Below are positions 930-31,762 of a DNA stretch of 64,000 nt, piece after piece. The position numbers were made by a program, and so were the translations under genes. The notes beneath the pieces were generated by a model. It was not told the DNA's origin. It searched no databases and saw only the letters and a list, made by a program, of their open reading frames with translations. Within the stretch, counting starts at the first letter, position 1. Every line of letters begins with the position of its first letter. The stretch is from Malachius bipustulatus (taxonomy: Eukaryota; Arthropoda; Insecta; Coleoptera; Melyridae): assembly GCA_910589415.1 (NCBI GenBank), contig OU342637.1, positions 27,744,162-27,808,161 of the forward strand. Reading direction: 5' to 3'.

Positions 930-1874
930 ATGCAATCTACTCATAGCAAGCTGAAGATATTTTGTAAGAAAATGAAAACTCAAATTTCTCAAGAGCACAA
1001 GTCTTTGATAAAATTAACTCAAATATTTGGACTTTATCCGTCAATTTGTTCAGAGAGTAATCAATATATTAATGTTTTATACCCATTAACTCTAGTACTT
1101 ATTCATCTGTCTTTATTAATATGGTCTCTTTATCAAAGAATCTTTAACTTTATTAAAGCTGATTACAGCTATGATGAATTTTGGCATTATTATTATTTAT
1201 CTGCTACAAGCCTAACTTGCCTCCTAACATCAGTGATTTTTGTCGTTTGCGGATCAGCTATAATCAAATGTTCAATAATTTATAAAAGAAAGATACAAAA
1301 ACTGTTTCAAAAGTTAGATGAGCTCAGCGAACTGTTAGCAATCGATAACATGATTATAAAGAAGACTGAGAAACGTATGTTGTGGGAAATTATTTTAGTA
1401 AATTTTATAATAATTCTTTTAACTACTTACGATGTGACTGTAACTTTAATGACTTACACCTTGGAAAAACATAAATATATTCTATCGTCTATTTATTTTC
1501 AGTATTTGTTCTCTATTCTATCGTTTCAAATATACGCTACAGTTACGTCAATAAAACTTAGATTGAAGATCTTCAATACAGCTTTTGATCAATTTCTACG
1601 GTCGGGAGAAATGATAACCAGACGACCACGACAGAGAACTCTTACATTTCTATACAGCAAATTGATGAGTCTTTTTGATTTATTTAATAACGTTTTTGGA
1701 ACTCAAATTCTTGGAATTATTTCGGTATTGATTATATATTTGATAATGATGACTTTAAGATCCATCCATTTATTATCGAAATATTGGCTAAAATTTGGAT
1801 CTACAACCGACAATATGATCGACAATGTAACCAATCTTGGAATTTTGTACACTGTTATATTCTTTTACTATACG
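930..1874 (+). CDS. Gustatory receptor, alternative first exon 1
   Basis: This 315-codon N-terminal exon encodes an insect gustatory receptor (7tm_7), an inverted seven-pass membrane protein acting as a ligand-gated cation channel in taste neurons. Hydrophobic segments lie near residues 50-68, 88-110, 152-172, 185-205, 262-280 and 298-315, about six helices. The family landmark FGTQILG is at about residue 255. The reading frame stops soon after a GT donor at 1875-1876 (phase 0), before TM7. The missing C-terminus is best supplied by the exon at 31451, giving 418 aa. It is the most divergent of the upstream exons, sharing mainly the C-terminal third. No close 3' exon is visible before the next receptor exon. 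ATG 930 was chosen; a later Met at codon 15 is also possible. The family call is firm; the splicing partner is inferred. Confidence 0.8.
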
Positions 1875-2299
1875 GTAAGTTAATATTCTACCTAAAGGGT
1901 GAATCGACTTTTATTTGTTGTTGCTGATAACATCGCGAGGCTACCCGTGAAAGGAAAATCACAGGTTGTTGTGCTTAGAAATACAATTATTATTGTGCTC
2001 CAACTATTTTTTACTATGCCTGCATATAATTGAAAATTGCGAGGAAAATTGAGTTAGAAATTGGAAGAATATGTGAAATAAATTTGATTTTTCTACTGAA
2101 GCCTGATTTTAATTGCAACACTTGTGGTATAAAGATCACTTTATGCATGATTATAATTCAAGCATAATAAAAAAATTACTTTCAAACGATCTATGGATCG
2201 AAATACAGAAAAAGAAACTAAAATTGCTCATTAACTCAAGCTAGCTTTTCGGGCTTAATTTCATGTTGCATAGCGTGATTTTCCCAATTTAACCAATTC
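1875..2299. other. Intronic or intergenic DNA, nothing recognised
   Basis: AT-rich sequence between the donor of Gr exon 1 and a foldback transposon. No receptor-type 3' exon, RNA gene or repeat was recognised here. Confidence 0.5.
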
Positions 2300-3260
2300 T
2301 ACAGGCTGCACCATGTATCCTTCTCTATATTGCTATCTCTTAACGCTAACAGATACATGGTCGGTTAAACAAGTCCAAAGAAGCGCAATTTTGTGGCCAT
2401 CTCGAATCAGTCAAGACATAGAAAATATCTGTGACCGTTCCTGAAATATCCTGAAAAACTGAAAAATCGAGATTTCCTATTTTTGCCATATTTTTTTTTA
2501 TTATTGGAGATTAATGAATAATTTTTTGTGGGCTTACATAAGTCGGCAAGAGCTACCCATCTGATATTTCCAAAATTTTCAAAGCCGACTAGATCCCAGG
2601 ATTTTCATAGTCAACTTTCGTTTTTCTTATGGCCACCATATTGTTTTTTTTATGTTGTTCGCTATAAAAAAACCATCAAAACAAGAAATTGTGAAATTTC
2701 AAAAAATAAATTTAAAAAATTTTTATTCTTCTTTTTTCTTTGCAAAAAAGACAACTTTTAAGACCGAATTTCATAGATAGATTAAAAAACCATAAGGCAA
2801 GCACTATTTCGGCGTATTTTCCAAATGTTGACATTTTTCAACGATTTTTTTTTGGTTTTTCTTTGAAAAAAGAAGAATAAAAAATTTTTTTTTTAAGTTT
2901 ATTAATTTATGGTTTTCATTATTTTTTTCATATCGAACGACATAAAAAAATAATATGGCGGCCATAAGAAAAACGAAAGTTGACTGTGAAAACTTTTGGT
3001 TCTAGTCGGCCTTGAAAATTTTTGTAATGACAGATGGATAGATCTTAACGGCTTATGTAAGCCTACAAAAAATTATTTATTAATTTCTAATAATAAGCAA
3101 GATATGGCAAAAATTTGAAATCTCGATTTTTCAGTTTTTTTCAGGATATTTCAGGAGCAGTGCATATACTGCGCATATTTTCTCTAATTTAACCAACCCT
3201 GTTATCTCTTGGCGTTCAGGAGATAGCAATATAGAGAAGGATACATGGTGCATCCTGTAT
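2300..3260. mobile_element. Foldback transposon, family A, copy 1
   Basis: The left end (TACAGGCTGCACCATGTATC) and right end (GATACATGGTGCATCCTGTA) are inverted repeats. The inversion continues almost to the middle, so each arm is roughly 450 bp. A second copy lies at 61306-62306. No transposase was seen; the short ORFs inside are symmetric and low in complexity. The TACAGGGTG-type terminus is shared with several other elements in this window and suggests a TA-targeting, mariner-like mobilising transposase. That last point is inference. Confidence 0.85.
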
Positions 3261-3523: not shown

Positions 3524-4507
3524 ATGTCTCCACAAAAATCGATTCCTAAAATATGTGCTAGTAGTTCCGAGAGAATAGTTTTAGGCCCCCTTATTAAAAT
3601 TTTAACACTTTTAGCTCTACATAAAGAGAAACCAGAGACAGTTAAAAGTCAATCTTTTATTTATAATAATTGGTACCACATTGTTATTGCGACTTTTCTA
3701 TTGCTGATGACTACATGTGGAGTAACAGGAATACTTCTTCGGTTCCTGATCTATAGGAACTTTGACATCTTATACTTTTTTGATGTGACTATAATGCCAA
3801 TTTTTTGCACGGTTTGCATCTTAATAGTTTTACTTGCCTCCTCATCGAAAAGTAAGAAAAATATAAATCTTCTTTTTCAAAATATCGACTTAATTGATGG
3901 TAAATTAATGAAGAATTTTCAAGTTTATTTCAAAAATAGAAAATTGAACTTGTTTACCCAACTGATTATATATCATACTTCATTTCTTATTTTATTTAGT
4001 TACGATATATATTGCCACGCTAGAAGTCATGTAATAAGGAAATACAAATTTTACCTGCCCATTATATTCTTCAGGTACATGATAGGTATGTTCCTCTTGG
4101 AAGTATGCAATTATGTAATTGCGTTAAGGACAAGAATTAAATCATTACATAAACAAATAATTTCAAATTTTTATGAGACCAGAATCTCAGCTATTGAGAC
4201 ACAAGACACAGGAAATGTAACCTCATCTTTTGATGCAATCGAGGCCGGAAGAGGAAAATGTTTCACTAACGAGTCGTTCCAGTCTTTTATAGAAACCTAT
4301 GAACGTATCATCAATTGTATATTCCTAATAAATAACAATTTTGGTAAACAAATTCTAGGCTGCTTTTTGGTGATGTTTTTCAGTCTACTGTACCCATTGA
4401 ACCTGTGCATTGCACATTTTCAGGGTAGAATGGCCTATTTGGTTGGTGACAATACTTTATTCAAAGAACTGCTTATATTAAATATTACAAGAGTGGCATA
4501 TTTCTCG
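3524..4507 (+). CDS. Gustatory receptor, alternative first exon 2
   Basis: This 328-codon Gr N-terminal exon opens with the shared start block (PLIKILTLLALHKEKPE, about residues 23-39). Hydrophobic segments follow near residues 47-70, 85-106, 146-162, 180-204, 272-292 and 315-328. FGKQILGCF marks the helix before the last loop. The donor at 4508 (TTCTCG|GTAAGT) is in phase 0 and cuts just after Phe-Ser, as in the other copies. Joined to 31451 it would give 431 aa. It lies between a foldback transposon and the next receptor copy. Its upstream sequence contains TATAAAAC near 3380, so it may have its own promoter. There is no frameshift or internal stop, so it looks functional. Ligand class cannot be read from sequence. 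Confidence 0.85.
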
Positions 4508-5640
4508 GTAAGTACTTAATTATGTTCAATATTGCAATATGGTAATGAGACTTGACATAATGTTTTCTTTCACAATTGCTTGTTTATCGTTTGTTGCCCT
4601 TTAAAACGGACGTAAAAACTCATTGGCGGCCTGGGCCACGAAGTAATAGTTCGCAACGTATATTATAAGGCCTTCAAATTAAATATTTCGTGTATTATAG
4701 TATAAAAATAATATTATTTGCCGTTCTGACAAGAAAATTAAAATACACACTTGGCAGTAGGATTTAACACACTTTCAAGGCAGTTGCTTCTCTGAATTTT
4801 CTTAGTGTGCTTTGCTCTGATAGGTAAATATACATAATTATATTCGATAAAGATATTAAGGGTTCAAAAAATAACCCTTTTCCCTAAAATTCAAAAAGCC
4901 GCCATTCAATAGCAGACCACTCCTTGTGGATATCTCACTGCAACTAAAATTTCAGTCCCCTAGATTGAAAACTGCGACCAGAAACCGTGCCTCATGGACC
5001 GGATTTTTGGTATTTTTAAAAGAAAGTAGAAGTAACGCAACTTGTGGAATTTTTTCAACGAATATTTAACGTAATTTCAAGTTTTACAAGGATCCAAAAT
5101 TTCGTTCTCTAATCTTGAAAGACAAAGCTACAGGAGTTTTTTTAAAAGGACTAGTGAAGCAGATCTCCAAAGATCACGGCAAAGCAGCACCAAACTCATG
5201 TTCGATAACTTAAAAATAATTCTTTCTACATAAAGAATTGAATATTTAATAAAATAAACAGATCAATACGTTAAATAAGAGGTTTATGATATAAATTATC
5301 AAAAATCAATTTGATGACTTGTAATTTCTGAGTGTATATTAATTTATGTAGTAGGTGGTGGTGAAGTTTGATGGTGAACCGAGCCCGGAAAATTAATTAT
5401 GATAAGCGATAGTGATCCTGGTAGAGCATTCTTTGTGAAAATTTTATTTAAAAACAATAATAGAAATAACATAAACATAATTGTTTCCATGATGTAAAAT
5501 TTTCATTAATCAATATTTACATTGTCAGTTGCATCGTTATTAATCAATAATCATCAAGTCAGTAATGTTGCCACAGAAACTCTGACAATACATTTATTTT
5601 TCCTTACATGCATCCATGAAATTAACTTCGATTGACCACA
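4508..5640. repeat. Gr intergenic unit with dispersed repeat blocks
   Basis: No gene was seen. Two blocks recur in the window. About 4583-4660 (TTTGTTGCC...GGCGGCCTGGGCCACGAAG) matches the regions after the next Gr copies near 6940 and 11850. About 4905-5150 (CAGACCACTCCTTGTGGA through AATCTTGAAAGA) also occurs at about 42270-42505, outside the Gr array. The last 240 bp match the upstream regions of the 9040 and 12600 copies and are the presumed 5' flank or promoter of the next exon. Confidence 0.7.
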
Positions 5641-6609
5641 ATGTTTCCTAAGGAAAAGAAACCAAAAATAGGATCGAAGGTTTCGGAAAAAGAAGCTTTG
5701 AAACCACTTACAAATATTTTAACATTTTTGGCTCTTTACAAAGAAAAACCAGAGATTTCGTTGGTTTGTAACAATAATTGGCATCTTATTGCTATTGTCA
5801 CTGTTATATTGACAAATAGTATATGGAGTATGGCGGGAATATTTGTGTTTTCCATAAAAGACGGAGTGTTTGATGTTGTACGCTTATTTAATGTAATTAC
5901 CTTGCCGGTTTTTGGCGTGATTTGTATCATCTTTGTTACACTAGGCTCCTCATCGAAAAGGAATAACGTCGATCTCTTCTTTCATAACTTGGACCTCGTT
6001 GATGTTCAATTAATGAGCTACTGTCAGAATTATATTGGAACCCAAAAATTCTTCGTAACTGTACAGCTAATCACGTATCACATCACATTTTTACTCTTTA
6101 TATGTTACACTTTATATTGCTGTATTAATTTTTATGGACTAAGACATTGTATATATTTTCTTCCCCTTGAATTATTAAGATATATCATTGACATTTTCCG
6201 CCTCCAAATTTGTAATTATGTAGCAGCAATAAGAAAAAGAATGACATCGTTTAACATAGAACTGAGAAAGACTTTCTATGAGATAAAAAATAAAGAGTTG
6301 GTAAAACATAGTATAAAAGACAAATACATTTTTTTTAACAAAACAGATACAGAAAGGAAAACGGGTGACAGCGAAAAATCCATGCAATCATTTCTAAACA
6401 CTTATGAAAACATTAGTAACTGCATATCATTAATAAACGGTAATTTCGGCACACAAATTCTTGGCTGGTTCGTGGTGGAATTAGTGAGTCTACAGAAACC
6501 TCTATATTTATTTGTAACACTTCTTCATGGTGGATTCTCTCATTTATCTGGTGAAACGAAAGTCCTGTCTCTACTCGCTTTGAACATATCAAGGATGTTC
6601 TTATTCTCG
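5641..6609 (+). CDS. Gustatory receptor, alternative first exon 3
   Basis: A 323-codon Gr N-terminal exon. ATG 5641 (MFPKEKKPK) was chosen; an upstream TTG is in frame but not credible in a eukaryote. The shared start block KPLTNILTFLALYKEKPE is at about residues 23-40, and FGTQILGWFVVELVSL is near residue 274. Exon end and phase match the other copies (Phe-Ser, phase 0), but the donor reads GTAAAT instead of GTAAGT, a weaker +5 position. Translation reads on through the donor for about 20 codons before a stop. It is a close relative of the copies at 9040/10737 and 12600, with near-identical flanks, so this is a recent tandem duplication. Predicted joined length with exon 31451 is 426 aa. Confidence 0.85.
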
Positions 6610-7571
6610 GTAAATATTTCAGTATTTTTATATAGCGATCGTCTTTTTTTATCTCTCTCGTCAATGGGATCTTGAGGAGTAGGTAACGGAGAAACAGGAT
6701 CGGTTAAATTAAAAAAAAAAATTAAAAACAAATTAAAACAAAATTTTAGACATGCTCAGTTGTTGCTGCAATATCCTGAAAAACTGAGAAATCGAGATTT
6801 TTATTTTTTTAGAAGTTTCTGTAATGTGGGGCTCATGTTTGAGGCAGATAAATTGTTGCTGACATAGATGTCCATTTTGCTCTGTAAGACAGATGTAACA
6901 ATAGGTTACAACCGTGATCTACTTGATTATATTTGCCTGTTTATCGTTTGTTGCCATTTAAAATGGACGTAAAAACTCATTGGCGGCCTGGGCCACGAAG
7001 CAATAGTTCGCAATTTTTGGCCGGATTATTGGAATTTTTAAAGGGCAGTAGAAGTAACGCGACTTTTAGAATTTTTTTCAACGAAATCTAACGTAATTCC
7101 GAGTTTTACAAGGATCCAAAATTTCGTTCACTAATCTTGAAAGCTACAGGAGCGTTTTTGAAGGGGCTCGCGGAGCAGATCTCAAAAGATCACGGCAAAA
7201 CCGCACCAAACTCATTTTTGATAACTTAATTATAATTCTTTCTACATAAAGAATTGGATATTTAATAAAATTAACAAATCAATAAGTTAAATAGGCGGTT
7301 TATGATATAAAAATTCAAGAATTTCAATTAAATTATCAAAAATCAATTTGATTACTTGTAATTTCTGAGTATATATGTATTTATGTATTGGGTGGTGGTG
7401 AAGCTTGATGATAAACTGAGCCCTGAAAATTAATTATGATAAGCGATAGTGATCATGGTAGAGCTTTCTTTGTGAAACCTTTATTTAAAAACAATAATAG
7501 AAATAGCATAAACAGATGTTTCCATGATATAAAATTTTCATTCTTTCAATATTTACACTGTCAGTTGTATC
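6610..7571. repeat. Tandem-duplicated Gr spacer, copy A
   Basis: Nearly identical to 11523-12487 over its whole length, including the stretch after the Gr donor (AGCGATCGTC...), a remnant resembling foldback family A near 6770, the GGCGGCCTGGGCCACGAAG block near 6985, and the 5' flank ending GTTGTATC. No gene was seen. It is interrupted at 7572 by a P-like element that the other copy lacks. Confidence 0.85.
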
Positions 7572-8918
7572 CTTTGAATAGACAGTCAGGAGGAAGGAGC
7601 AAATACGAAGTCCCACTTGGACCGGGATGGGTTTTGCAAATGACGGATGACCCAGTGGCGTATCAAACTTACGAATTTGAAAGGCAAGCTTTGTTGATGA
7701 TTATTGGTACTCTATTAATATAATATGAGGCAAGAAAATGTTTGAAAATGACCAAAAGCTTGGCTAGTAATTAATGTGGAACTTAATTAAATAGGTTCCT
7801 CACGTAGTACTTTTAAAACTTAAAAATTTTTATTTTTTAGCCAAAACATGTTTTAAAATAATTATATCTTAGTTTTCATAATTATTACATAATTTAAATA
7901 AAATATTTTTTATATGAATTATTTATTTTAATAAAAAACATTTCGAACTACAGACAGTAGTATTTAAATATGAAATTTAATTTCGCATGAAAATTCTTTT
8001 GTCGCCAGCACAGCTTCTGTAATCTTCTTATTTTATGAGTCTTCAAATTATTGATATCTTTCAATTCAGAAATTTTTCTTTTAAGTTTTTTCTTTCTAGG
8101 AGTATCTATATTTGAAGATTCAAACTCTAATGTAGGATTCCTTAGCAAGTTTTCATCCAAAATACTAGTTGACTCCACTCCTTCTGCAGAACTTGCCGGA
8201 AGCACGCCTTGTGCATCTTTTTATATCTGTTGGATTAAAATTCCTCACCTAAAATTACGACAAACAACAAAATTAAAAAACATTATAGATAACAATCGAC
8301 TCAAGAAACTTACATATTTTAATCTATTCACTTCTTTAGTGGGTGTAGCATTGTGTAATAATCTAACTTTTAGTTTTGATGTTCGATCAAAGCAATCTGA
8401 AGTAAAATGCTGCGAGCAAAGAACACTACTCTTTTTCACGGTCCAATTCTGCTTTTTCACAAGACTCAACCAAATTTCTCTTATGTTTTCATTCTTAGGA
8501 AAACTGAAAACAATCATTATTTTAATAATTATTATTATCTTTTACCACTCCTAACAAACGCCTATGAACTTCAGCATAACCTCAACACCGAATCACACAC
8601 CAGCGTATTGCAAATATTTCCGTGTAAATGTGCATTTTTATAATTTGAAAACCAAAAAACAATACTTACTGATGGAATGTTATTCCCAAGAATTTGTTTT
8701 TTGCTGTCTGCGAACAGCCACATGCTGCACAGCTAACCATTTTAATCAAATAACGACGCGAAACTCAACAGAACGTGAACACAACCAAAGGTAAACAAAC
8801 CAAACCACCGAGCGCGAGCGCTGAGTCATAAATGGGGTTTCAAGATGGCCGACTGGTCTCACAGGATCGTGCGCTGTCGAAGGCAAAATGTTCCTTCCGA
8901 CTAACTGTCTATTCAAAG
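7572..8918 (-). mobile_element. P-superfamily-like DNA transposon with 8-bp target duplication
   Basis: A 1347-bp insertion whose ends are inverted repeats. The left end is CTTTGAATAGACAGT and the right end is its complement, with a further similar stretch (AGGAAGGAGC against GTTCCTTCC). It is flanked by identical 8-bp direct repeats, GTTGTATC at 7564-7571 and 8919-8926. The paralogous spacer at about 12478-12495 shows the empty site with one GTTGTATC, which proves the insertion. It carries the start of a THAP-domain protein on the - strand but no full transposase, so it is non-autonomous or a deletion derivative. An 8-bp duplication plus a THAP domain is what the P superfamily shows. Confidence 0.88.
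8314..8740 (-). pseudogene. THAP DNA-binding domain of P-like transposase (fragment)
   Basis: Two - strand exons together form a C2CH THAP zinc finger, the DNA-binding head of P-type transposases. The first (8740 down to 8670) begins at an ATG and contains Cys-x2-Cys as in MVSCAACGC, ending at a GTAAGT donor in phase 2. The second (8503 down to 8314) supplies HFPKNE, a Trp, and the Cys-x2-His of CSQHF, and ends at another GTAAGT. A further - strand open stretch at 8205-7948 is basic and Lys/Arg-rich (RKKKLKRKISELK) and could be the following zipper or nuclear-localisation segment, but its acceptor is not clear. The catalytic part is missing, so the protein cannot be an active transposase; it could still act as a DNA-binding competitor. 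Confidence 0.75.
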
Positions 8919-9277
8919 GTTGTATCGTTATTAATCAATAATCATCAAGTCAGTAATGTTACCACAGAAACTCTGACAATACATTTATTTTTCATTACAT
9001 GCATCCACGAAATCAATCAATAAGTTCGCATTGACCACAATGTTTTCTAAGGAAAAGAAACCAAAAATAGAGTCCAAGGCTTCGGTAAAAGAAGCTTTGA
9101 AACCACTTACAAATATATTAACATTGTTGGCTCTTTACAAAGAAAAACCAGAGGTTTCGTTGGCCTGTAATAATAATTATTGGCACCTTATTGTTATTGT
9201 CACTTTCATATTAACAAATACTATATGTAATATACAGGGTAATATATATATGTAATATATAATAACAAATACTATAT

Positions 9278-10736
9278 ACAGGGTTTGGAGGAGGGGATGC
9301 GCACTGTGGGCTGGCTTTTGGATCTCTCCAAGGCCTTCGACAGTGTGTGCCACGAGTGCCTCCTTCGGAAACTGGAGAATGTCGGAGTTCGTGGATTGCC
9401 CCTTTCTTGGTTTACCAGCTACCTACAGGGAAGAACACAGGCGGTTCAGATAACTGGGTCTGATGGCCGACCTGTGCGATCACCCTTTGCTCCAGTCTCC
9501 TCTGGGGTGCCACAGGGTAGTGTTCTCGGTCCACTTCTTTTTCTTATCTTCATTAACGATCTGGGCCCCAAAATTACCTCCCCAAATTCACTCTGTGTTA
9601 ACTATGCTGATGATACAACAATTCTTATTAGGATAAAACCAGGCGACCCTCCTAGTCTGATAGATACCATTCAACTCCCGTTGAAAAGAGCAAGTTTATG
9701 GCTCAGGGCCAATGAACTAAAACTTAACTTAGACAAAACTGAACTGATTGATTTTCACTCTAGCCGATCACGTCTTCCACCTTTACCCTCCATACCCACC
9801 GATGGTGCCTTGATCGAGCCGAAGGGCGTGGTGAAGTTTTTGGGCTTCCACATCGACCAGAACCTAAACTGGTCGGCTCACACAGATCATTTGTGCCGTC
9901 GTCTTGCTAGTGTCTGCTTCCTTCTTAGACGCCTTCAGCACACGGTGTCCCCTGAGGTTCTTCTCTTTGCTTATTATGGGCATTTCATCAGCCACGTGAA
10001 CTATGGGCTGGCCGTCTGGGGTGGGTCTGAGAGATCTCTGCGAAGGGTTTTTCTTCTTCAAAAGAGAGCGATTAGGATCCTGACAGGCTTGTCAATGCAG
10101 CAGTCATGCAGAGGCCATTTCAGGCGGCTTGGACTTCTTACCGTGCCTGCTTTGTATGTCTTCTCTCTGCTCAAACTGATCCACAAAAATCAGGATAGAC
10201 TTTTACCTTACCGATTCACGCATCACTACAGTACCAGGTTCAATTTGTTTAAACCTCCTACACACCATCTGTCGTCTTCAGAAAGGACATTCACATACGC
10301 ATCTATCAAATACCTGAACCACTTCAAAATAGATCCTGCAACTGTTGGGTTCTCAGCGTACAGTGCGTATCTCCGGAAACATCTCACGGAGTTGGAACCC
10401 TACACTACCTCTGATATACTGTCCTTCCACCCCCCATCCCTACCTGCAGTCTGATATTAAAACACCTAAAACCCAAAGCCTTGATCCATCCATCCTTATC
10501 ATAGAGATGGAACTATGCCTCGATCGAGAACTGATTTCTTTTGTGTCTCTGCGCGTCTCGACCCTCACTGTTCCCGGCGTTATGCTGACATGCTGTGTGT
10601 TTTAAAAATTTTTACTGTTTGTCTTTATGTTTGTTTTTATAATTTCTGTAATGACGCTGTTGTACTGAGCAATGACTGTTGTAATTCAAGTACAATAAAG
10701 AAATTTGTAATTGTAATTGTAATTGTAATTGTAATT
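9278..10736 (+). mobile_element. 5'-truncated non-LTR retrotransposon in Gr exon 4
   Basis: The insertion ends in a polyadenylation-type AATAAAG followed by about five TTGTAA repeats (10700-10736), then the Gr exon resumes. The left junction is messy: the target word AACAAATACTATAT occurs at 9212-9225 and again at 9264-9277, with AT-rich filler between. The 5' end lacks the endonuclease and the first part of the reverse transcriptase. Orientation is the same as the Gr exon. The 3' hexamer repeat tail is a feature of several insect LINE clades. Confidence 0.88.
9285..10454 (+). CDS. Reverse transcriptase fragment of the LINE in Gr exon 4
   Basis: About 389 codons are open, but the natural start is missing because the element is 5'-truncated; the first in-frame ATG is near the junction. 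Visible RT landmarks are DLSKAFDSV (first catalytic Asp), SGVPQGSVLGPLLFLIFIND, and NYADDTT (catalytic Asp pair). The connection and C-terminal region follow, including WSAHTD, AVWGG and LQKRAIRIL. These are typical of Jockey/CR1-type LINE proteins. It ends at TGA 10452-10454. No frameshift was seen within the remaining part, which fits a young insertion. It cannot mobilise itself without its endonuclease and N-terminus. Confidence 0.85.
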   Translation: MEEGMRTVGWLLDLSKAFDSVCHECLLRKLENVGVRGLPLSWFTSYLQGRTQAVQITGSDGRPVRSPFAPVSSGVPQGSVLGPLLFLIFINDLGPKITSPNSLCVNYADDTTILIRIKPGDPPSLIDTIQLPLKRASLWLRANELKLNLDKTELIDFHSSRSRLPPLPSIPTDGALIEPKGVVKFLGFHIDQNLNWSAHTDHLCRRLASVCFLLRRLQHTVSPEVLLFAYYGHFISHVNYGLAVWGGSERSLRRVFLLQKRAIRILTGLSMQQSCRGHFRRLGLLTVPALYVFSLLKLIHKNQDRLLPYRFTHHYSTRFNLFKPPTHHLSSSERTFTYASIKYLNHFKIDPATVGFSAYSAYLRKHLTELEPYTTSDILSFHPPSLPAV

Positions 10737-11522
10737 ATATGGAGTTTGGCGGGAATATTTGTGTTTTTCCTAAAAGACAATGTGTTTGATGTTGTATGCT
10801 TTTTTGATGTAATTACCTTGCCGGTTTTTTGCGTGATTTGTATCATCTTTGTTACACTAGGCTCCTCATCGAAAAGAAATAACGTCGATCTTTTCTTTCA
10901 TAACCTGGACCTCGTTGATGGTCAATTATTGAGCAACTGTCAGAATTATACCAGAACCCAAAAATTCTTCGTGATTGTACAGCTAGTCACATATCACATC
11001 GCGTTTTTACTCTTTATATGTTACAATTTATATTGCTATATTCATTTTTATGGACTGCATAGTACGTATTTTTTTTCACTTGAATTATTAAGATATATGA
11101 TAGATATTTTCCGCCTCCAAATATGTACTTATGTAGGAGCAATAAGAAGAAGAATGGCATCTTTTAACATGGAACTGAGAAAGACTTTCTATGAGATAAA
11201 AAATAACGAGTTTGTAAAACACAGTATAAGAGATAAGAACAATTTTTTTATCGAAACAGATACAGAAGGGGAAACGGGTGACAGCCAAAAATCTATGCAA
11301 TCGTTTTTAAACACTTATGAAAACATTAATAACTGCATATCATTAATAAACGGTAATTTCGGCACACAAATTCTTGGCTGGTTCTTGGTGGAATTAGTGA
11401 GTCTACTGAAACCTCTATATTTATTTGTAACACTTCTTCATGGTGGATTCTCTCGTTTATCTGGTGAAACGAAAGTCCTGTCTCTACTCGCTTTGAACAT
11501 ATCAAGGATGTTCTTATTCTCG

Positions 11523-12599
11523 GTAAGTATTTCAGTATTTTTATATAGCGATCGTCTTTTTTTATCTCTCTCGTCAATGGGATCTTGAGGAGTAGGTAAC
11601 GGAGAAACAGGATCGGTTAAATTAAAAAAAAAAAATTAAAAACAAATTAAAACAAAATTTTAGACATGCTCAGTTGTTGCTGCAATATCCTGAAAAACTG
11701 AGAAGTCGAGATTTTTATTTTTTTTAGAAGTTTCTGTAATGTGGGGCTCATGTTTGAGGCAGATAAATTGTTGCTGACATAGATGTCCATTTTGCTCTGT
11801 AAGATAGATGTAACAATAGGTTACAACCGTGATCTGTTTGATTATATTTGCCTGTTTATCGTTTGTTGCCATTTAAAATGGACGTAAAAACTCATTGGCG
11901 GCCTGGGCCACGAAGCAATAGTTCGCAATTTTTGGCCGGATCATTGGAATTTTTAAAGGGCAGTAGAAGTAACGCGACTTTTAGAATTTTTTTCAACGAA
12001 ATCTAACGTAATTCCGAGTTTTACAAGGATCCAAAATTTCGTTCACTAATCTTGAAAGCTACAGGAGCGTTTTTGAAGGGGCTCGCGGAGCAGATCTCAA
12101 AAGATCACGGCAAAACCGCACCAAACTCATTTTTGATAACTTAATTATAATTCTTTCTACATAAAGAATTGGATATTTAATAAAATTAACAGATCAATAA
12201 GTTAAATAGGCGGTTTATGATATAAAAATTCAAGAATTTCAATTAAATTATCAAAAATCAATTTGATTACTTGTAATTTCTGAGTATATATGTATTTATG
12301 TATTGGGTGGTGGTGAAGCTTGATGATAAACTGAGCCCTGAAAATTAATTATGATAAGCGATAGTGATCATGGTAGAGCTCTCTTTGTGAAACCTTTATT
12401 TAAAAACAATAATAGAAATAACATAAACAGATGTTTCCATGATGTAAAATTTTCATTCGTTCAATATTTACATTGTCAGTTGTATCGTTATTAATCAATA
12501 ATCATCAAGTCAGTAATGTTGCCACAGAAACTCTGACAATACATTTATTTTTCATTACATGCATCCACGAAATCAGTCAATAAGTTCGCATTGACCACA
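11523..12599. repeat. Tandem-duplicated Gr spacer, copy B
   Basis: Near-identical partner of 6610-7571 plus the 5' flank also seen before 5641 and 9040 (TCATCAAGTCAGTAATGTT and ACTCTGACAATACATTTATT). It lacks the P-like insertion and so defines that element's empty site. No gene was seen. The end is the likely promoter or 5' UTR of the next receptor exon. Confidence 0.85.
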
Positions 12600-12640
12600 A
12601 TGTTCCCTAAGGAAAAGAAAAGAAACCAAAAATAGTGTCG

Positions 12641-13570
12641 ATGGCTTCGGAAAAAGAAGCTTTGAAACCACTTACAAATGTTTTAACATTCTTGGCTCTT
12701 TACAAAGAAAAGCCAGAGATTTCGTTGGTTTGTAATAATAACTGGCACCTTATTGTTATTGTCACTTTCATATTAACAAATACTATATGGAGTTTGGCAG
12801 GAATATTTGTGTTTTTCCTAAAAGACAATGTGTTTGATGTTGTATGCTTTTTTAATGTAATTACCTTGCCGGTTTTTTGCGTGATTTGTATCATCTTTGT
12901 TACACTAGGCTCCTCATCGAAAAGAAATAACGTCGATCTTTTCTTTCATAACCTGGACCTCGTTGATGGTCAATTAATCAGCAACTGTCAGAATTATACC
13001 AGAACCCAAAAATTCCTCGTGATTGTACAGCTAATCACATATCACATCGCATTTTTACTCTTTATATGTTACAATTTATATTGCTATATTCATTTTTATG
13101 GACTGCATAGTACGTATTTTTTTCCACTTGAATTATTAAGATATATGATAGATATTTTCCGCATCCAAATATGTACTTATGTAGGAGCAATAAGAAGAAG
13201 AATGGCATCTTTTAACATGGAACTAAGAAAGACTTTCTATGAGATAAAAAATAACGAGTTTGTAAAACACAATATAAGAGATAAGAACAATTTTTTTAAC
13301 AAAACAGATACAGAAGGGAAAACGGGTGACAGCGAAAAATCTATGCAATCGTTTTTAAACACTTATGAAAACATTAATAACTGCATATCATTAATAAACG
13401 GTAATTTCGGCACACAAATTCTTGGCTGGTTCGTGGTGGAATTAGTGAGTCTACAAAAACCTCTATATTTATTTGTCATACTTCTTCATGGTGGATTCTC
13501 TCATTTATCTGGTGGAACGAAAGTCCTGTATTTACTCGCTTTGAACATATCAAGGATGTTCTTATTTTCG
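12641..13570 (+). CDS. Gustatory receptor, alternative first exon 5 (shortened start)
   Basis: A 310-codon Gr exon from ATG 12641 (MASEKEALKPLTN) to the phase-0 donor TTTTCG|GTAAGT at 13571. The ATG homologous to the sister copies lies at 12600. There an extra 5 bp in the AAAGAAAAGAAACC run shifts the frame into TAG at 12633, so the natural N-terminus is out of frame. Initiation at 12641 removes about 14 residues before the conserved KPLTN block and may still give a receptor. The rest matches the copies at 5641 and 10737 closely, with the six membrane segments and FGTQILGWFVVELVSL. Joined to 31451 it would give 413 aa. It could be a functional receptor with a shorter tail or an early pseudogene. 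Confidence 0.8.
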
Positions 13571-14739
13571 GTAAGTATTTCAGTAATTTGTCTATAGAGC
13601 TCGTCTTTTTTATCTCTCTCATCAATGAGATCTTGAGAAGTAGGTAACCGAGAAACAGGATCTTAAAACAAAATTTCAAACAATTTCAGTCGTTGCTGAA
13701 ATATCCTGAAAAAACTGAGAAATCGAGATTTTTTATTTTTTTTAAGTTTCTGTAATCTGGGGCTCATGTCTGAGGCAGATAAAATGCTGCTGATGATGTG
13801 GATGTCCATTTTGTTCTTGTAAGAACTCATCGACATGTCATATCAGCAAGTGTGATTTTCTACCTCTTGGCATAAGATCAATTCGTAGAATTACATTTGC
13901 TAATATGAAATGCCGATAAGCTCTTCTAACAAGAGCATAAACACAAGTTCATGACAAAATAACGCGTAAGTAAAAATGAAATAATCTGACAGTAGAAAAG
14001 CCGCAGCCATTTTAGACGAAAAAAAGGCAAACCCAACAGAAATTTTGGCAACAGAAATTTTTTGAGGAAGTTTTGTTCCCCCCTCCTTAGAGATGCTTAG
14101 TGTAAAGTTATCACAAATTACCCCAAGACCTTAAATTTATAAGGGGCTAGTTTGCTTTTTCTCATTAACTCGTTTGTTTTTGAGTTTTGGATGAAACACT
14201 TTTCAAAATTTGTGAGGAATTTTATTTTCTACATTTTATGTTTCCATAATTTTCTTGAAATTTGGTTGGTTATAAAAACTATTACGCATAATTAACGAAG
14301 AGATTAAAATGCAATTTTTGCATTTTTTGTTATTTTTTTTCGCCAAAATGTGCCATATGGGACAGTTGTTTCTTATAGAGGTTGCTTTTTAGAGTATAAT
14401 TTTATGAATAACGCTTTTAGTCCAGTAAAATTAGGATTTTATTATGCAATCAAAGAGGGCTAAACGGAGTTTTGTGTGGGTGTTGGGTGGTATCGAAGGT
14501 GAGTCTAAATCCAAAAATGCGACCTCCTACACCTTGTGGAAAAGCCGTCATTTTGGTTTGAGGGGAAGAATTATTTTTTTGAATTTTACGATGTTAGTTT
14601 CGAGTTACTTTTATGTTCAGCAATTTTTTTTTTTTCGTTATTGATGGCTTGAATGGATTATATATTTTTTTGTTGATAATAATAAATATTATTATAACAT
14701 TTTAGAGCTTTTTCAGAAAATTTTCAGTAAAAAGTTTGT
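13571..14739. other. Spacer, no gene seen
   Basis: The first 170 bp are a diverged copy of the spacer that follows the other Gr copies (TATCCTGAAAAAACTGAG). The rest is AT-rich with no recognised gene, RNA or transposon ends. Imperfect repeat-like text begins after about 14430 and becomes a clear tandem array from about 14740. Confidence 0.5.
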
Positions 14740-16559: not shown

Positions 16560-17543
16560 ATGTCTTCAGCAAGACCTAAAATAAGCTCTAAAAATGGTTC
16601 CGAAAAAACAGCTTTAAAACATCTTACAAAGATATTAACGGTATTTGGTCTGTATAATGAAAAACCAGAGGGAACCAAAAGATGTTCATTTATTTACCAC
16701 AATTTCCACTCTATTGTCATTATTGCTTCCCTCTTAATAACATGCACTTGGGGTACGATAGGAAAATTTCTTTTTTTCCTAAATCAGAGAACAATCGACA
16801 GCTTTTACTTATTTGATGTAATTATGATGCCAACCGTTTGTGCGGTTTGTGTGGTAATAGTTACATTTGGTTCTTCATCAAAAGGAAACCATGTCCTTCT
16901 TTTCTTTCATAATCTGGATCTAATCGACGATAAAATAATGAAAAATTATCGGGAATACATAAAAAACAGAAAATTGCACTCGGTTGCACTACTAATTGTA
17001 TATCATATCGCGTATTTATCTTACTTATGCTTCGAAATATACTCTCATTTTAACCAAATCAAAGGTTTTGATTTATGGACGTACAAATTTTACCTACCAA
17101 TCATTTTGTACAGATATTTGCTCGATATGTTCCGCCTCCAAGTATGCAACTATGTAAGAGCTATAAGGACAAGAATTGTTTCCTTTAATAAGGAAATTAT
17201 CGACGTTTTTTATGAGATAAGAGTCACAGAAGTTGTTACAAATAATGCACAAAACATATCGTTACATTTCAAAAACCTCAAAGCTGAAAGGAACAAAAAT
17301 ATTTCAGGAATCTCGTTGCAGACTTTTATAGACACTTACGAACTCATCGACGATTGCATATCGTTAATAAATGATAATTTCGGGCGGCAAATTCTTGGCT
17401 GGTTCGTTGTGGAAATTTTGAGTCTTCTAGATCCTTTGAATTTCTCTATTGCATTTATTCAAGGTAGAGTGAGTTATTTAAATAATGGCGACCTTCTCAG
17501 GCGGATTCTCAGTGTACATATCACAAGAGTTGTATTTTTCTCG
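16560..17543 (+). CDS. Gustatory receptor, alternative first exon 6
   Basis: An intact 328-codon Gr N-terminal exon from ATG 16560 (MSSARPK) to the phase-0 donor TTCTCG|GTAAGT at 17544. The start block KHLTKILTVFGLYNEKPE is at about residues 20-37. Six hydrophobic segments follow, and FGRQILGWFVVEILSL is near residue 277. It shares the basic loop (NYVRAIRTRI) that precedes the variable intracellular segment in all the copies. With exon 31451 the product would be 431 aa. No breaks were seen. It is clearly related to, but well diverged from, the 5641/12641 group, so it is an older duplication. Confidence 0.85.
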
Positions 17544-23500: not shown

Positions 23501-24646
23501 CGATTCCACACTAAATTCCTCTTTCAGATTCAGAGAACTTTCAGATTCTTCCACAATCGGTTCTCTTTCACACTACCATCCTTCTAAATATAGTAGATCC
23601 ACTTTTGCACTAATCATATATCTATTCGTTATACATGGCAGAAATGACAAGAGGCGAGAAAATGGCGAATATTGAATAACCTCAATTAATTCCAGAGTCC
23701 AGATCCAGACAGTTCTCCAATATTTCTTGATCACGCATAACACTGCCTCCCTCTTAATTCAGATGGACCAGCATCAATTTGTAACTTTCGGGCGCCCCTG
23801 TGCTGCGGCATCTGAATTATACACCACATCGTTGAGTCGATGATGGTGTATATCCTTTTCGCCTTCACGTTGTATCTTGCCTTCGTTCGATTGCTGACCC
23901 AGCTAGATTTCCTTTCTTGGCAAGATTTTACTTTTTCCTTGGTGTTTATCAGTCTTCGAATGACATAGTTCGTGATCTTGGATGGAGGGCTACTTGGTGA
24001 ACTGTCCCCCCAGTCACAGCAGAGTAGATTAGCCTCTTTTCAAAATTTCACCTGTGGTGAAGTTTGACGTTTGGCCTATCGTCTTCTTTAACAGATGCTC
24101 TGACTATTACTTTTCCTATTTTTTTTTGGCCATAACGCCATTTATATTTCTTTAAAGTAGGCAGAAATTAACTGTGGAAAAGTTCAAGTAATCAAGAGTT
24201 GCAAGTGATAAAATAGTAATCGCTCTTATGGTAATCTTATTCTTCAAAATAATCCCTCCAGGGGTAACGCGCTCAAAAGTTCTCTTGGAGTTAGTATCAG
24301 AAAGTAAGCCAGGAAAAAAATGTTAGGAGAAGTTCGTAAAAAACCGGATTGTTTTGAAACATAAATGGGGCAACCTGTATAAACATAAGTTTAATTAAAC
24401 ATTTCCATTAGTACTTGCTCTAGTAATAGAACTTTCATTCTTTGTTCTTCTTTCTATGGTTACTTTATTAGAAAATCGATATTTACAGCTAGTCGCAATC
24501 ATTTTCATTATACAAACACTTATTATTATCATTCCTTTACATTATGTACACGATTTACGTTGGTCGATGCTTCCAGTCTCGCTTGCATAGTACATACACT
24601 CATATAGTAATAGTATAGAACGAATACCTACTCTTGTTGCAACACA
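23501..24646. other. Spacer and upstream region of Gr exon 8
   Basis: About 23501-24200 is less AT-rich than its neighbours and holds no recognised gene or transposon end; it could be a decayed repeat. About 24510-24646 resembles the 5' flank of Gr exon 7 and is the likely promoter or 5' UTR. Confidence 0.45.
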
Positions 24647-25669
24647 ATGTCTCCAGAAAAAAAGAAAGCGAAAGTAATAAGTTCACCTAGTTGCGAAAAA
24701 ATGGCTTTAACTCCTCTCACAAAAATTTTAACCATCTTAGCCTTATATAAGGAAAAACGAGAATTAACCAAAGAACGCTCACTTATTGCTGACAACTGGT
24801 ACTTTCTTGTTGTAGTTGCCTTTCTATTGATAATAAGTGTGTGGGGTACGACTGGAAAATTTCTTGTGTTGCTGATTGACAGAACGTTCGATAGCATTTA
24901 CTTATTTGATGCAATTATGATGCCAATTTTTTGCTTAATTTCTATCGTCTTAGTTACACTTGCTTCCTCATCGAATAGAAATAACGTCTCCCTTTTCTTT
25001 GAGAATCTCGACTTTGCTGATGGCAAATTAATGAAGAATTATCAAGTTTATATAAAAAGCAGAAAAGTTAACGTGGTTACTCAACTAATTATCTATCACT
25101 TCTCATTTTTATTCTGCGTAAGTTACGATATATATGCCCACAGCGGTGGTGGTAGTGGTGGTGGTGGTGGTGGTGGTGGTGGTTATGGATTAGACAAATA
25201 CAAATTTTTCTTACCAATTTTTTTTCTAAGATATTTGACTGACATTTTTCGCCTGCAGATGTACAATTATGTGCAAGCAATACGATTAAGGATTACTTCC
25301 TTCAACCAAGAAATTATCAAGACATTTCACGAAACTAAAATTGCAGGAAGTGTTACATTATTCGATACACCAAACAAACCTTCATCTTCTATTGGTAAAG
25401 TTGAAGATAGACGAATAAGAGAGATTGACAAAGATAAGTCCTGGCGATCGTTCATATGCACCTATGAACGTATCATTGATTGCATATCCTTAATCACTAA
25501 TAATTTCGGTCCACAAATTCTTGGCTGCTACGTGGTTGATGTTCTCAGTTTAATGGATCCTCTGAATTTATCTGTAGCTCATATTCAGGGTAGATTGATT
25601 TATTTAGTTGATGTCACTTTCTTCAAGGAACTAGTAGTTCTAAATATTTTAAGAGTCACATTCTCCGCG
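24647..25669 (+). CDS. Gustatory receptor, alternative first exon 8
   Basis: A 341-codon intact Gr exon from ATG 24647 (MSPEKKKAK) to the phase-0 donor TCCGCG|GTAAGT at 25670. The start block LTPLTKILTILALYKEKRE is at about residues 24-42, and FGPQILGCYVVDVLSL is near residue 288. It pairs with exon 7 in sequence. Two oddities appear. A glycine-rich stretch (residues about 167-181, nine Gly in one run) interrupts the loop after the third membrane block, where relatives have a few residues. The junction residues are Phe-Ser-Ala rather than Phe-Ser. Predicted joined product is 444 aa, the longest of the set. Confidence 0.85.
25143..25184 (+). repeat. GGT trinucleotide repeat coding poly-Gly in Gr exon 8
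   Basis: An in-frame (GGT)n tract with one AGT and one A-containing unit, coding GGGSGGGGGGGGG. Because the unit is three bases, slippage changes loop length but not frame. Length polymorphism is expected. Confidence 0.9.
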
Positions 25670-27706: not shown

Positions 27707-27732
27707 TTACAGCGAAGATTAGACACCACATA

Positions 27733-27834
27733 TATGTCAAAAATGTCAAAAGTGTCAGTGTTGGCAATGAAGAACCCTTTGATGAAGCCCACCCTTAAAA
27801 TCACATAGAAAAACCATTTAGCTCAACAATAATT
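27733..27834 (+). repeat. 102-bp exact direct repeat, copy 1
   Basis: Starts TATGTCAAAAATGTCAAAAG and ends CTCAACAATAATT. I found no difference from 28686-28787, 953 bp downstream. Copy 2 begins exactly at the right terminus of the mariner-like element. Confidence 0.9.
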
Positions 27835-27912
27835 GAAGACTTGAAATAAAAACCGGGCTAAGTGCCAAAATTTAATTTCTTAGATAATCGATTTTTTTAC
27901 TTATGACATTAT

Positions 27913-28557
27913 ACAGGGTGTATTGTAACGTCCGCATAATATTAGCACCACACGATTCTACATCAAAAACAGAACAAAAAAGTCCTCAACAGTTTTTTCT
28001 TGATGTACACAGATTTTAAGATATGGACAATTTACTTAACGTTCTTAAATTTTGCAACACTGGCGCTGGTATAAAAATTAAGATAACTTAGACGTGAAGT
28101 CACCTAACTGGGTATGGTGTGCCGTTGCTATGTGATCGAAAAAAGGTGCAACAAGAATGTCATGCTGCGACGTGTCACTCAATGATGCAATTTTTTACAG
28201 ATTTTTTATTTTTTCAATTTTTTATTCAACAATTAAAACGCGCAGTTGCAATATTGATTGGAAGTATTGGAACTCAGGAAATCAAATAATTCCTAGTTTT
28301 GAAATGTTAATTAAAACCATTTTTACCAAAAAAAAATCTAAAATTTTGGATAATTTGGCTATTTTACTTCTTACTTAAGAATTTTTTAATAATATTAAGC
28401 AATATTTTTGAGTATTAAAAAACTTCAAATTTAAACTACAATGGTCGATAACTTCGTTATTTGAGGTCTAAGAGCTAAACGGTATTAAAACTTTATGTTC
28501 TGTTTTTGATGTAGAATCACGTGGTGCTAATATTATGCGGACGTTACAATACACCCT
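27913..28557. mobile_element. TIR element (TACAGGGTG type)
   Basis: The first ~70 bp (ACAGGGTGTATTGTAACGTC...) and the last ~70 bp (...GACGTTACAATACACCCTGT) are nearly exact inverted repeats, including GTTCTGTTTTTGATGTAGAA. The total is about 645 bp. The interior is AT-rich with one short non-conserved ORF (28157-28378). Non-autonomous. Confidence 0.85.
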
Positions 28558-28685
28558 GTGTTATTGTTACACAGATATGAAAAAATAAGTCAATGAATAA
28601 ATCATTTCTGATAATTCTGGCACATTTTTGAAAAAGTCCATCGTTTGGCCTACAGAGACCGCTTCGAATAAGCTGGGACACCCTG

Positions 28686-28787
28686 TATGTCAAAAATGTC
28701 AAAAGTGTCAGTGTTGGCAATGAAGAACCCTTTGATGAAGCCCACCCTTAAAATCACATAGAAAAACCATTTAGCTCAACAATAATT
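28686..28787 (+). repeat. 102-bp exact direct repeat, copy 2
   Basis: Identical to 27733-27834. After both copies the sequence diverges immediately (CCTCTCATG here, GAAGACTTG after copy 1). Confidence 0.9.
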
Positions 28788-28921
28788 CCTCTCATGTAAA
28801 TTATGCCACATTTTCCTCAATGAAGACGCTGTGAGATTGGTAAAGGTTAGATATTTAAAAAATTTCTTTCCGTCATTGTCAAAATTTTGAGACAATTTGT
28901 TTACTGCATTTTGAATAAATA

Positions 28922-29777
28922 TACAGGGTGGCCAATTAGTGCGACAAAGGTCAATATCTCCTGTACCATTGAAGATAGCGGAAAACTTTTTTCAAGAAAG
29001 TTATTAAGGGTTAAGAGATGCATCTTTTAAAATTATTTTCGACTATACAGGGTGCTCCATAAAGGCGGGACGGTAAAAAGTTCATGTTTTTTAAATGGGA
29101 CGCCCTATATTTTATTGCATTTTCAGATTGTCTGAGAAAATGTAATAACAATAATGTTTATAGTTGCATTTTAAATTGAGTAGGCTATGAGTTATAAACA
29201 AGTGAAAATCGCAATTTTCCAACTTTAAACCCATTTACCACAAAAACGGCCCATAATATCAAAAAACGGCTTACATGTTTACTATCTTAACTTTTTATAA
29301 GGCATCCAATTATGCAGTTGAAATGTTTATACAAGGTGGTGAAAATTATCAGATTTTCCATCACCCTGCATAAACATTTAAACTATACAGTAGGATACCA
29401 GATAAAAATTTAAGATAGGGTCATGTAAGCCGTTTTCTGATATCTTGAGCCGTTTTTGTGGTAAATGGGTTTAAAGTTGGAAAATTGCGATTTTCACTTG
29501 TTTATAACTCATAGCCTACTCAATTTAAAATGCAACTATAAACATTATTGTTATTACATTTTCTCAGACAATCTGAAAATGCAATAAAATATAGGGCGTC
29601 CCATTTAAAAAACATGAACTTTTTACCGTCCCGCCTTTATGGAGCACCCTGTATAGTCGAAAATAATTTTAAAAGATGCATCTCTTAACCCTTAATAACT
29701 TTCTTGGAAAAAGTTTTCCGCTATCTTCAATGGTACAGGAGATATTGACCTTTGTCGCACTAATTGGCCACCCTGTA
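28922..29777. mobile_element. Nested palindromic element (three concentric inverted repeats)
   Basis: The outer ends are TACAGGGTGGCCAATTAGTG and its complement. Directly inside, the same symmetry is bounded by a second terminus, TACAGGGTGCTCCATAAAGG (29046), with its complement near 29652. At the centre a third inverted pair (ACAAGGTGGTGAAAATTATC near 29333 and CATCACCCTGCA near 29360) flanks about 20 bp. The arms run about 410 bp with few differences. No transposase was seen. This is either a true foldback element or a MITE nested exactly within another, then copied as a palindrome. Confidence 0.88.
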
Positions 29778-30187
29778 TATATTTTTTTCGAATTATTTGA
29801 TGCCCCATATTGCCTCGCCTTCTCTTGAAAGTATAGGTACTCTGTATAATGTAGTAATATTTAATTCATTAATTAGGTAATAACTCCAATGGAAAACTCA
29901 TTTACGTTCTATATTAATCAATAGTAAATAAACACTACACCTAGAGGTACATGATATAAATGGTTTCACTATATTGATATAAATTTCCTTTTGAACAGAA
30001 AACAAAGAAACACATAATGTTTAATGTAAAATGCATTAATTAATTTTTCCGTCAATAAATCAAATGGCTTTTCATTAAGAAACAACTACTCTTTGTCATT
30101 CTTTATACCGGCAAACAAACAGGTAAAAATGATTTCAAATAGTAGTCTGAATAAATTATTATCATCAGTGCCCCTACCTGTAAAGAT

Positions 30188-31762
30188 ATGTTCACTTCAT
30201 ATCCTGAAGAAAATTTCCAAAAACCGTTAACAAAAATGCTTCAGATCCTCGGTCTGCATACTTATAAAATGTTTGCAGATGATAATTTTCTAAGTCGTGT
30301 AATTATTCTAATACATATTGGGCTAACTGTAGCGATTTGGACCTTTATTAATGTATGGAGTTTTTTGGGAAAACTTGCAATGAATCCTTCCAACTCTCTC
30401 AGCAGTATATATTTAGAAGAAATTGTAGAAATGCCTTTTGCAACTATTATTTATTTTTATTCTATATTTCAAGCTATGTTTAGGGATATACATTTAAGAA
30501 AATTCCTTAAAGGTAACTATTTTACTTAAAGATACACTCATATTAGTATAAAACAAAGACCTTAGATAATATGTGTAATTTCTAACAATTCATTTTTAGC
30601 TTTATCCCAAATGGACCAATTTTTACAACTAAAACAAAATGATTTTAAAAGAAGGCATTGCATATTCTTATCAGAGCTGGGGGTATTCGTCATGGTTACC
30701 ATACCTTTAAACGTTTTCTCAAATTACTCGAATATAACAGCTTTTGGTATAAAAACACATCAATTCTTCGCACCTCAAATACTTCTAAACTGGTGCATGG
30801 CACTTACTTGGCTGCAGACTTACAATTGCATATTAGCAATCAGGTTCAGGTTGACGATCTTCAACAAGATCTTGAAGAAAACATACACAACTGAAAAATG
30901 GAAACACGAAAACTACAATCGTACGGAAAACTCTTTCCAGAACGTCCAATCCGAATTATTTGAGTTAATGGTTCTTGTAAATAGACATTTCGGTTTACAA
31001 ATAATGGGAATGATCAACTGGCAACTTTTGGTACTGATCAGGACCATCCACCAAGGTTCTATGTTTTTAACTGGGGGTTTCAAAACATTCAAGCCAGTTG
31101 ACTTAACGTATATTCTCGTGTTATTTGTAGCAAGGTTTTTGTATTATTTGGTAAGTTTGTTTTGAGAAAGAGCAATTTTTTTCTATACCTACACTCTACA
31201 CTAACTTAATCATGAATCATTAAGTGAACGCACATGCAGACTTACTTCGGTGCATGGAGACTTTGAATAATTAATTGGTCATGTTGCATATAGACTTTCT
31301 GTAACAGGTAGTGCCTAATGGTTAAAATGATTATCTACCAATGACATCCTTTTAGTGCAACCGTTTGCAATCTTTTAAATTTAGAATTGAGAAAGAAGTT
31401 AAAAAATAATAGTACCCTTATAATCAGTAATTGTTATATCTTTGTTCCAGTGTCTGGATATAATCCTGACAGTTTCATGCGGGCAGACTACTCAAGAAGC
31501 ACGTCACACAGGAACCATCTGCTACAAGCTCCTTCAAGACATACCCGTGCTCCCTACAAATCGTCAAGACAAACTGATCCGAGCCGAATTGCTCCAGCTG
31601 GCCGACCAGGTAGCGAAACGGGATCCTCATTTTAGCGCTGCAGGATTTTTCAATCTTGATAACAGGACCTTGTATGAGCTGTTCGCCTCGGTGATTATGT
31701 ACGTTATCATGCTGCTTCAGTTCGAAGGGGGTAGTACTGCTGAGTATAAACCCAACCATTAG
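30188..31762 (+). CDS. Gustatory receptor, complete downstream isoform (395 aa)
   Basis: A complete Gr in three coding pieces: 30188-30512, intron of 87 bp (AAAG|GTAACT ... TTTTTAG|CT, phase 1); 30600-31150, intron of 300 bp (TTG|GTAAGT ... TTCCAG|TGT, phase 0); and 31451-31762. The start block FQKPLTKMLQILGLH is at residues 10-24, six hydrophobic segments follow, then FGLQIMGMINWQLLVL. The last exon gives TM7 and the tail signature. The internal intron is unique to this copy; the upstream exons are continuous over the same region. It is the nearest partner of the shared exon and may be the founder of the array. Total length fits the family (about 350-450 aa). Confidence 0.88.
31451..31762 (+). 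CDS. Shared Gr C-terminal exon (TM7 and tail)
   Basis: 103 codons plus stop, opening in phase 0 right after a good acceptor (TTTGTTCCAG). The reading CLDIILTVSCGQTTQEARHT completes helix 6 and enters the intracellular loop typical of Gr 3' exons (TGTICYKLL). It ends with FSAAGFFNLDNRTLYELFAS and the TM7 signature MYVIMLLQF, where the usual TYhhhhhQF has Met instead of Thr. It is the only such exon recognised on either strand between 0.9 and 36 kb. Every upstream receptor exon ends in the matching phase. Sharing among isoforms is inferred; its use by the 30188 gene is nearly certain. Confidence 0.9.
   Translation, partial: CLDIILTVSCGQTTQEARHTGTICYKLLQDIPVLPTNRQDKLIRAELLQLADQVAKRDPHFSAAGFFNLDNRTLYELFASVIMYVIMLLQFEGGSTAEYKPNH

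Follow-up and report, generated by a model that had tools for sequence, protein, structure and literature searches.

In a 64,000-nucleotide stretch of the genome of the beetle Malachius bipustulatus (GCA_910589415.1, contig OU342637.1, positions 27,744,162 to 27,808,161, forward strand; hereafter the window, in whose coordinates all positions are given), we found nine gustatory receptor (Gr) 5' coding units and one Gr 3' exon, all on the + strand between 930 and 31762. Very probably these make up one Gr locus, in which mutually exclusive 5' units would be joined to the common 3' exon at 31451, however the first exon is chosen. Such sharing fits the common phase of the units, the single detectable 3' exon, the in-frame and full-length joins, the tandem units in which no 3' exon was detected and the purifying selection described below. 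G+C content in the window is 29-39% (4-kb steps). The units, here called E1 to E9, and the 3' exon are laid out as follows (aa, amino acids; LINE, long interspersed nuclear element; a slash marks the exon end).

930..1874, + strand: E1, divergent first coding exon, 315 aa, donor TATACG/GTAAGT, phase 0
3524..4507, + strand: E2, first coding exon, 328 aa, donor TTCTCG/GTAAGT
4576..13824, + strand: tandem array of three units (E3, E4, E5), whose starts at 4576, 6933 and 11848 are marked by an 81-bp repeat
5641..6609, + strand: E3, first coding exon, 323 aa, donor TTCTCG/GTAAAT, deviating from GTAAGT
9040..11522, + strand: E4, LINE-disrupted first exon, 5' part 9040-~9230, 3' part ~10736-11522, donor GTAAGT kept
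12641..13570, + strand: E5, first exon, 310 aa from a downstream ATG, usual ATG at 12600
16560..17543, + strand: E6, first coding exon, 328 aa
19725..20690, + strand: E7, first coding exon, 322 aa
24647..25669, + strand: E8, first coding exon, 341 aa, glycine tract from 25145-25183
30188..30512, + strand: E9a, first coding exon of the variant closest to the 3' exon, phase-1 donor GTAACT
30600..31150, + strand: E9b, second exon of E9, phase-0 donor GTAAGT at its end
31451..31762, + strand: shared 3' exon, with the end of presumed helix 6, the next stretch, helix 7 and the stop

The original prediction, made from the letters of the DNA, had listed eight phase-0 GT donors, and all of them are present (1874, 4507, 6609, 13570, 17543, 20690, 25669 and 31150); E4 adds a ninth at 11522. 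The donor begins with GT in nine of nine units and reads GTAAGT in eight, E3 being the exception with GTAAAT. Phe-Ser, which had been said to stand at the donor in most units, is found there in six of the nine (E2-E7), while E8 has Ser-Ala, E1 Tyr-Thr and E9 Tyr-Leu. The 3' exon at 31451 starts in phase 0 and is directly preceded by ..TTTGTTCCAG, an acceptor of standard type with 78% pyrimidine over the 18 bases before AG. Its translation begins CLDIILTVSCGQ... and its stop ends at 31762. On its own this exon matches the Pfam family 7tm_7 (PF08395) with 56.2 bits against a curated cut-off of 26.6 (E-value 4.8e-15), and it is the only Gr 3' exon found in the window.

A tblastn search of the whole 64-kb window, both strands, did not find a second 3' exon; the best other match had an E-value of 1.2 for the whole exon and of 0.39 for the part coding transmembrane helix 7 (TM7). 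Simulated copies of the whole exon were recovered at E<0.01 in 59 of 60 cases at 30% identity and in 54 of 60 at 25%; for the TM7 part, recovery fell to 51 of 60 at 30% and to 15 of 60 at 25%. This power is optimistic and the true one lower, since the simulated copies carried conservative substitutions only and no insertions or deletions. Some very weak matches follow closely on the donor of E3, that of E4 (E-value 31) and that of E5 (11 to 42). They were considered as remnants of lost 3' exons and rejected, as they do not rise above shuffled queries and their frames contain stops but nothing resembling a Gr exon. Over the 1.2 kb that follow each of the E1-E8 donors, the best bit score stayed under the 95% level of 100 shuffled queries in eight of eight stretches, both for the whole exon and for TM7, and the best score over all eight stretches was equalled by 69 (whole exon) and 58 (TM7) of the 100 shuffles. 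As shuffled queries score as well, we regard these matches as chance. Within what a sequence search can detect, the claim that the first exons lack TM7 exons of their own stands.

Joined in silico to 31451, the seven units put to the frame test (E1, E2, E3 and E5-E8) all remain open to the stop. Splicing of the same upstream exons to the internal acceptor of E9 at 30599 was rejected, a stop being reached after 10 codons in seven of seven. In-frame stops lie 5-17 codons ahead of the ATG in all seven, which suggests that they are initial coding exons. Counting E9 and leaving the interrupted E4 aside, eight of eight joined products are 395-444 aa long and match 7tm_7 from profile position 2-32 to 367. 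The scores are 91.5 bits for E1 (9e-26, profile 2-367), 57.2 for E2 (2.4e-15, profile 26-367), 61.4 for E3 (1.2e-16), 64.6 for E5 (1.3e-17), 63.4 for E6 (3.1e-17), 69.5 for E7 (4.4e-19), 68.0 for E8 (1.2e-18) and 73.7 for E9a, E9b and the 3' exon (2.2e-20, profile 2-367; without E9a only 113-367). Four reversed first exons joined to the 3' exon were also put to Pfam (reversed E6 was not among them); these scored 51.3-53.8 bits, with the match starting at 251-285 in four of four. As true joins reach the start of the profile and reversed ones do not, the first exons hold a real receptor signal, weak in general and very small in E2.

The original prediction had placed the donors after helix 6. 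Hydropathy does not support this, since in eight of eight joined proteins the junction falls within one hydrophobic segment (for example ILSVHITRVVFFS/CLDIIL). This segment, the next-to-last in each protein, is presumed to be helix 6, and the shared exon would consequently code half of it, the following stretch and helix 7.

The strongest structural argument for sharing is provided by the tandem units. An 81-bp stretch at 4576 is repeated at 6933 and 11848 (95%), 5820-7574 at 10736-12489 (95%) and 4999-6889 at 11936-13824 (87%). The 81-bp marks lie 69 bases behind the donor of E2 and ~325 bases behind those of E3 and E4; an end mark for the third unit was not found. Each unit consists of one first exon (E3, E4 or E5) with its upstream flank and its donor, and contains no detectable 3' exon, which argues that an exon was duplicated and not a gene. 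Unit 1 has ~340 bases between the mark and 4999 that are absent from the others, and unit 2 carries later insertions, one at ~7575-8918 and the other a LINE. The flank match includes a dispersed repeat at ~4907-5147, with an 85% identical copy beyond the locus at 42275-42521, so that the left boundary near 4999 is less sure than the 81-bp marks. The upstream flank common to E3 and E5 measures ~640 bases, the part that E4 has in common with them ~120 and that of E7 and E8 ~130; these common flanks are consistent with promoters travelling with their exons.

The LINE breaks E4 at ~9231-10735. Its reverse-transcriptase open reading frame (ORF) lies at 9243-10454 on the + strand (RVT_1, 2.5e-20) and its (TTGTAA)n tail at 10705-10736. 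The six bases TATATG stand on both sides of the element, and TATATGGAG is present a single time in each of E3, E4 and E5, the pattern expected of a short target duplication. As the LINE separates its two parts, E4 was rejected as a working exon. In E5, 5 nt are inserted behind the usual ATG (12600), and the open frame does not begin before 12641. E9 is split by a phase-1 intron into two exons, 30188-30512 and 30600-31150. The nine units on one strand are thus as originally described, but not all of them are sound single first exons. The shared 3' exon is retained from that description as the likely reading, while its "at least eight" receptors give way to a count, from the sequence, of seven clean receptors plus the doubtful E5 and the broken E4, or eight if E5 starts downstream.

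E2-E8 form one family. When E1, E2, E6, E8 and E9 were used as tblastn queries, E2, E6 and E8 found the members of this family at 38-70% identity, with E-values down to 2e-139. E1 and E9 stand apart from the other units, with about 21-27% identity and E-values from 0.006 to 4e-9 against some of them, and E1 and E9 gave no tblastn match to each other at E<=0.1. Ratios of nonsynonymous to synonymous substitution (dN/dS, Nei-Gojobori) were obtained for ten selected pairs, all of them within E2-E8. They are 0.24-0.35 in the eight pairs without E4 and 0.58 and 0.66 in the two with E4; dS is above 1 in six of the ten pairs, whose values are therefore rough. Purifying selection on 5' exons would be pointless unless these were completed, and it fits completion by 31451, the only 3' exon found. 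E8 also contains a (GGT)13 tract at 25145-25183, coding a glycine run without counterpart in its closest relative E7; the length of this tract could differ among individuals.

An AlphaFold model of E6 alone, built on a nine-row alignment, is of low confidence (predicted local distance difference test, pLDDT, 55.1; predicted template modelling score, pTM, 0.40). Compared with the PDB by Foldseek, a result taken here as supporting evidence only, this low-confidence model has BmGr9, a gustatory receptor, as its best match (E-value 7.2e-3, probability 1.00, template modelling score 0.61), followed by two structures of AgamOR28, an insect odorant receptor; the probability of the fourth match is 0.10. 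When the joined E6 protein was searched against a protein database, 5563 candidates shared words with it, but none reached E<=10.

From the anatomy, the phase, the single detectable 3' exon, the tandem units and the selection we infer a scheme of splicing, separate promoters and crossing-over. Each 5' unit would supply its own ATG, the helices before presumed helix 6 together with the first half of that helix, and a phase-0 donor. Each donor would be spliced to the acceptor at 31451 over one intron, of 0.3 kb for E9 and up to 29.6 kb for E1, and the shared exon would supply the remainder of presumed helix 6, the next stretch and helix 7. Most likely, the receptor is chosen by which first exon's own promoter fires; each transcript would run to 31762, and the first exons downstream of the active one would be skipped inside the intron. 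The locus would grow by unequal crossing-over between adjacent units, by which a first exon and its flanks are copied and the 3' exon stays single. The receptors so formed would differ in the parts presumed to bind the ligand and be identical at their end. Their ligands are probably of the bitter type, to judge by analogy from beetle loci.

Several observations weigh against this reading. Two of the nine units, E4 and E5, are damaged, and E1, with ~19-25% identity to the others, could come from another, decayed gene. The sharing is deduced from genomic sequence, and the promoters were judged by eye alone from upstream sequence. None of the nine first-exon pieces alone matched PF08395 at E<=1, and all their matches in Pfam were under the respective cut-offs. 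The assignment of the N-terminal parts to the Gr family therefore rests on the joins, on homology among the exons and on a weak fold match; since the 7tm_7 profile covers both halves, a match of a first exon alone was not treated as family-defining. For E2, joining raises the score of the 3' exon by just 1 bit (from 56.2 to 57.2), and the summed scores of two domain halves are no proof of partnership. None of 349 PDB matches of the E6 model reached E<=0.001, at a pLDDT of 55, and at its threshold the hydropathy scan found between 5 and 8 segments in a protein instead of a clean seven.

The array could also be read as tandem separate Gr genes whose upstream members lost their own 3' exons and are now pseudogenes, so that only E9 with 31451 works. 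The LINE in E4, the N-terminal frameshift in E5 and the richness of the array in repeats speak for this, as does E9, which is closest to 31451 and, in contrast to the other units, contains an additional intron. We nevertheless consider it improbable: E1, E2, E3, E6, E7 and E8 each have an open frame of 315 codons or more and keep a phase-0 donor, dN/dS is 0.24-0.35 in the eight pairs without E4 (no pair includes E1), and the 1.2 kb behind the donors of E1-E8 contain no above-chance remnant of a 3' exon. Still less credible, and in our view very improbable, is that the sequence search overlooked a separate 3' exon, short and diverged, for each of the first exons. A TM7 exon at 25% identity would indeed often be overlooked (15 of 60 found at E<0.01), but an exon of ~100 codons at the equal intron position was detected at that identity in 54 of 60 simulations, and the first exons themselves are still 38-70% identical in the E2-E8 pairs queried. 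Moreover, only ~325 bases separate the donors of E3 and E4 from the next unit, and their translations contain no such exon.

In a variant of the same sharing, a non-coding leader upstream of the window would be common to all 5' units, which would then be mutually exclusive cassette exons instead of having promoters of their own. The window starts 929 bases before E1, so that an upstream leader is possible; likewise, further first exons may lie upstream of its first base. We think this variant unlikely, as no clear pyrimidine-tract acceptor was seen by eye just ahead of the ATGs and, in the available part of the report, GAL4 drivers for the isoforms of Drosophila Gr28b differ in expression (PMC3237578). 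We thus favour a common 3' exon joined to first exons with their own promoters.

The window contains further elements. Within the locus, the region between E5 and E6 has an imperfect tandem array of ~92/177-bp units (14683-15720), and that between E6 and E7 an inverted ~180-bp pair (17814-17994 / 18766-18945, 97%), probably the ends of one mobile element. A second LINE-type reverse-transcriptase remnant occupies 21629-23510 on the - strand, in two overlapping frames (RVT_1, 3e-22 and 2.4e-06, the latter under the cut-off), and a tandem duplication of 167 bp is seen at 21479-21809. An 862-bp near-perfect palindrome at 28919-29780, 94% identical to its own reverse complement, is probably a fold-back element; a weaker one (71%) is found at 2300-3259. 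A 102-bp direct repeat with 100% identity (27733-27834 and 28686-28787) encloses an inverted pair (27913-27980 / 28492-28559, 96%). Downstream of the locus, 51578-56628 on the + strand codes a WAP domain (1.4e-10) and, behind it, a fibronectin type III domain (1.9e-8); this may be a gene of the anosmin-1 (Kallmann) type. An ORF at 38769-39350 (+) codes a long Ala/Pro-rich repeat and has no Pfam match at E<=0.01. No tRNA was found in the window, nor any Rfam family at gathering score.

The comparison with Drosophila Gr39a, Gr23a and Gr28b and with Tribolium, proposed from the outset, agrees with the literature, as far as the available portions of the papers cited here go. TcasGr214 of Tribolium castaneum has 30 alternative 5' exons (PMC6307266; PMC6720082). 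As proposed for the Malachius locus, many alternative long 5' exons are spliced there to a common 3' sequence coding the C-terminus; in contrast, TcasGr214 has three shared 3' exons for its 30 variants, whereas here one shared exon would serve nine units, one of them broken and one doubtful. The two-exon Grs of Dendroctonus ponderosae, with a unique N-terminal exon and a single shared C-terminal one (PMC6720082; PMC11302349), are alike in plan but have two or four variants per gene instead of nine units over 31 kb. Other large alternatively spliced Gr loci of beetles, compared here by their number of variants, are AglaGr99 with 17 and LdecGr48 with 13 (PMC6720082). According to these excerpts beetles often have this arrangement, but genes of this kind are reported to be absent from Agrilus planipennis (PMC6720082) and Trypodendron lineatum (PMC11302349).

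In Drosophila, Gr39a has four large exons alternatively spliced to three small ones, with gain, loss and decay among species (PMC2204066; PMC3011837). Tandem-duplicated long 5' exons, a conserved shared 3' part, exon decay and purifying selection are features it has in common with the Malachius locus (PMC2204066; PMC3011837), but its helix 7 and C terminus are coded by three small shared exons (PMC6307266), and the two are likened in architecture. A similar criterion, receptors without terminal exons arrayed with one that has them, was used to propose alternative splicing in PMC8956072, where the alternatively spliced odorant receptors were unconfirmed by transcriptome. The available parts of PMC5792627 and PMC9840275 contain nothing on Gr splicing. 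We therefore see the locus as a good new example of a recognised architecture and not as a new kind of gene.

The split inside presumed helix 6 points to a natural divide between a variable, presumably ligand-binding part and a constant end. In solved channels of insect gustatory and odorant receptors, much of the pore and of the subunit contacts is built by half of helix 6, the stretch behind it and helix 7; all receptors of the locus would have these parts in common. It is tempting to speculate that the products of different first exons in one neuron could therefore combine without restriction into mixed tetramers, that selection for interchangeable subunits would keep the 3' exon single and that the locus would act as a combinatorial ligand-sensing unit. 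We give this idea a slim chance; if true, the locus would be more than a compact gene cluster.

In summary, the locus is a clearly delimited example of how Gr genes diversify through duplicated exons, and the copied unit is visible in it as a first exon with its flanks and donor and without a 3' exon. Annotation could easily mistake such upstream exons for C-terminally truncated pseudogenes.

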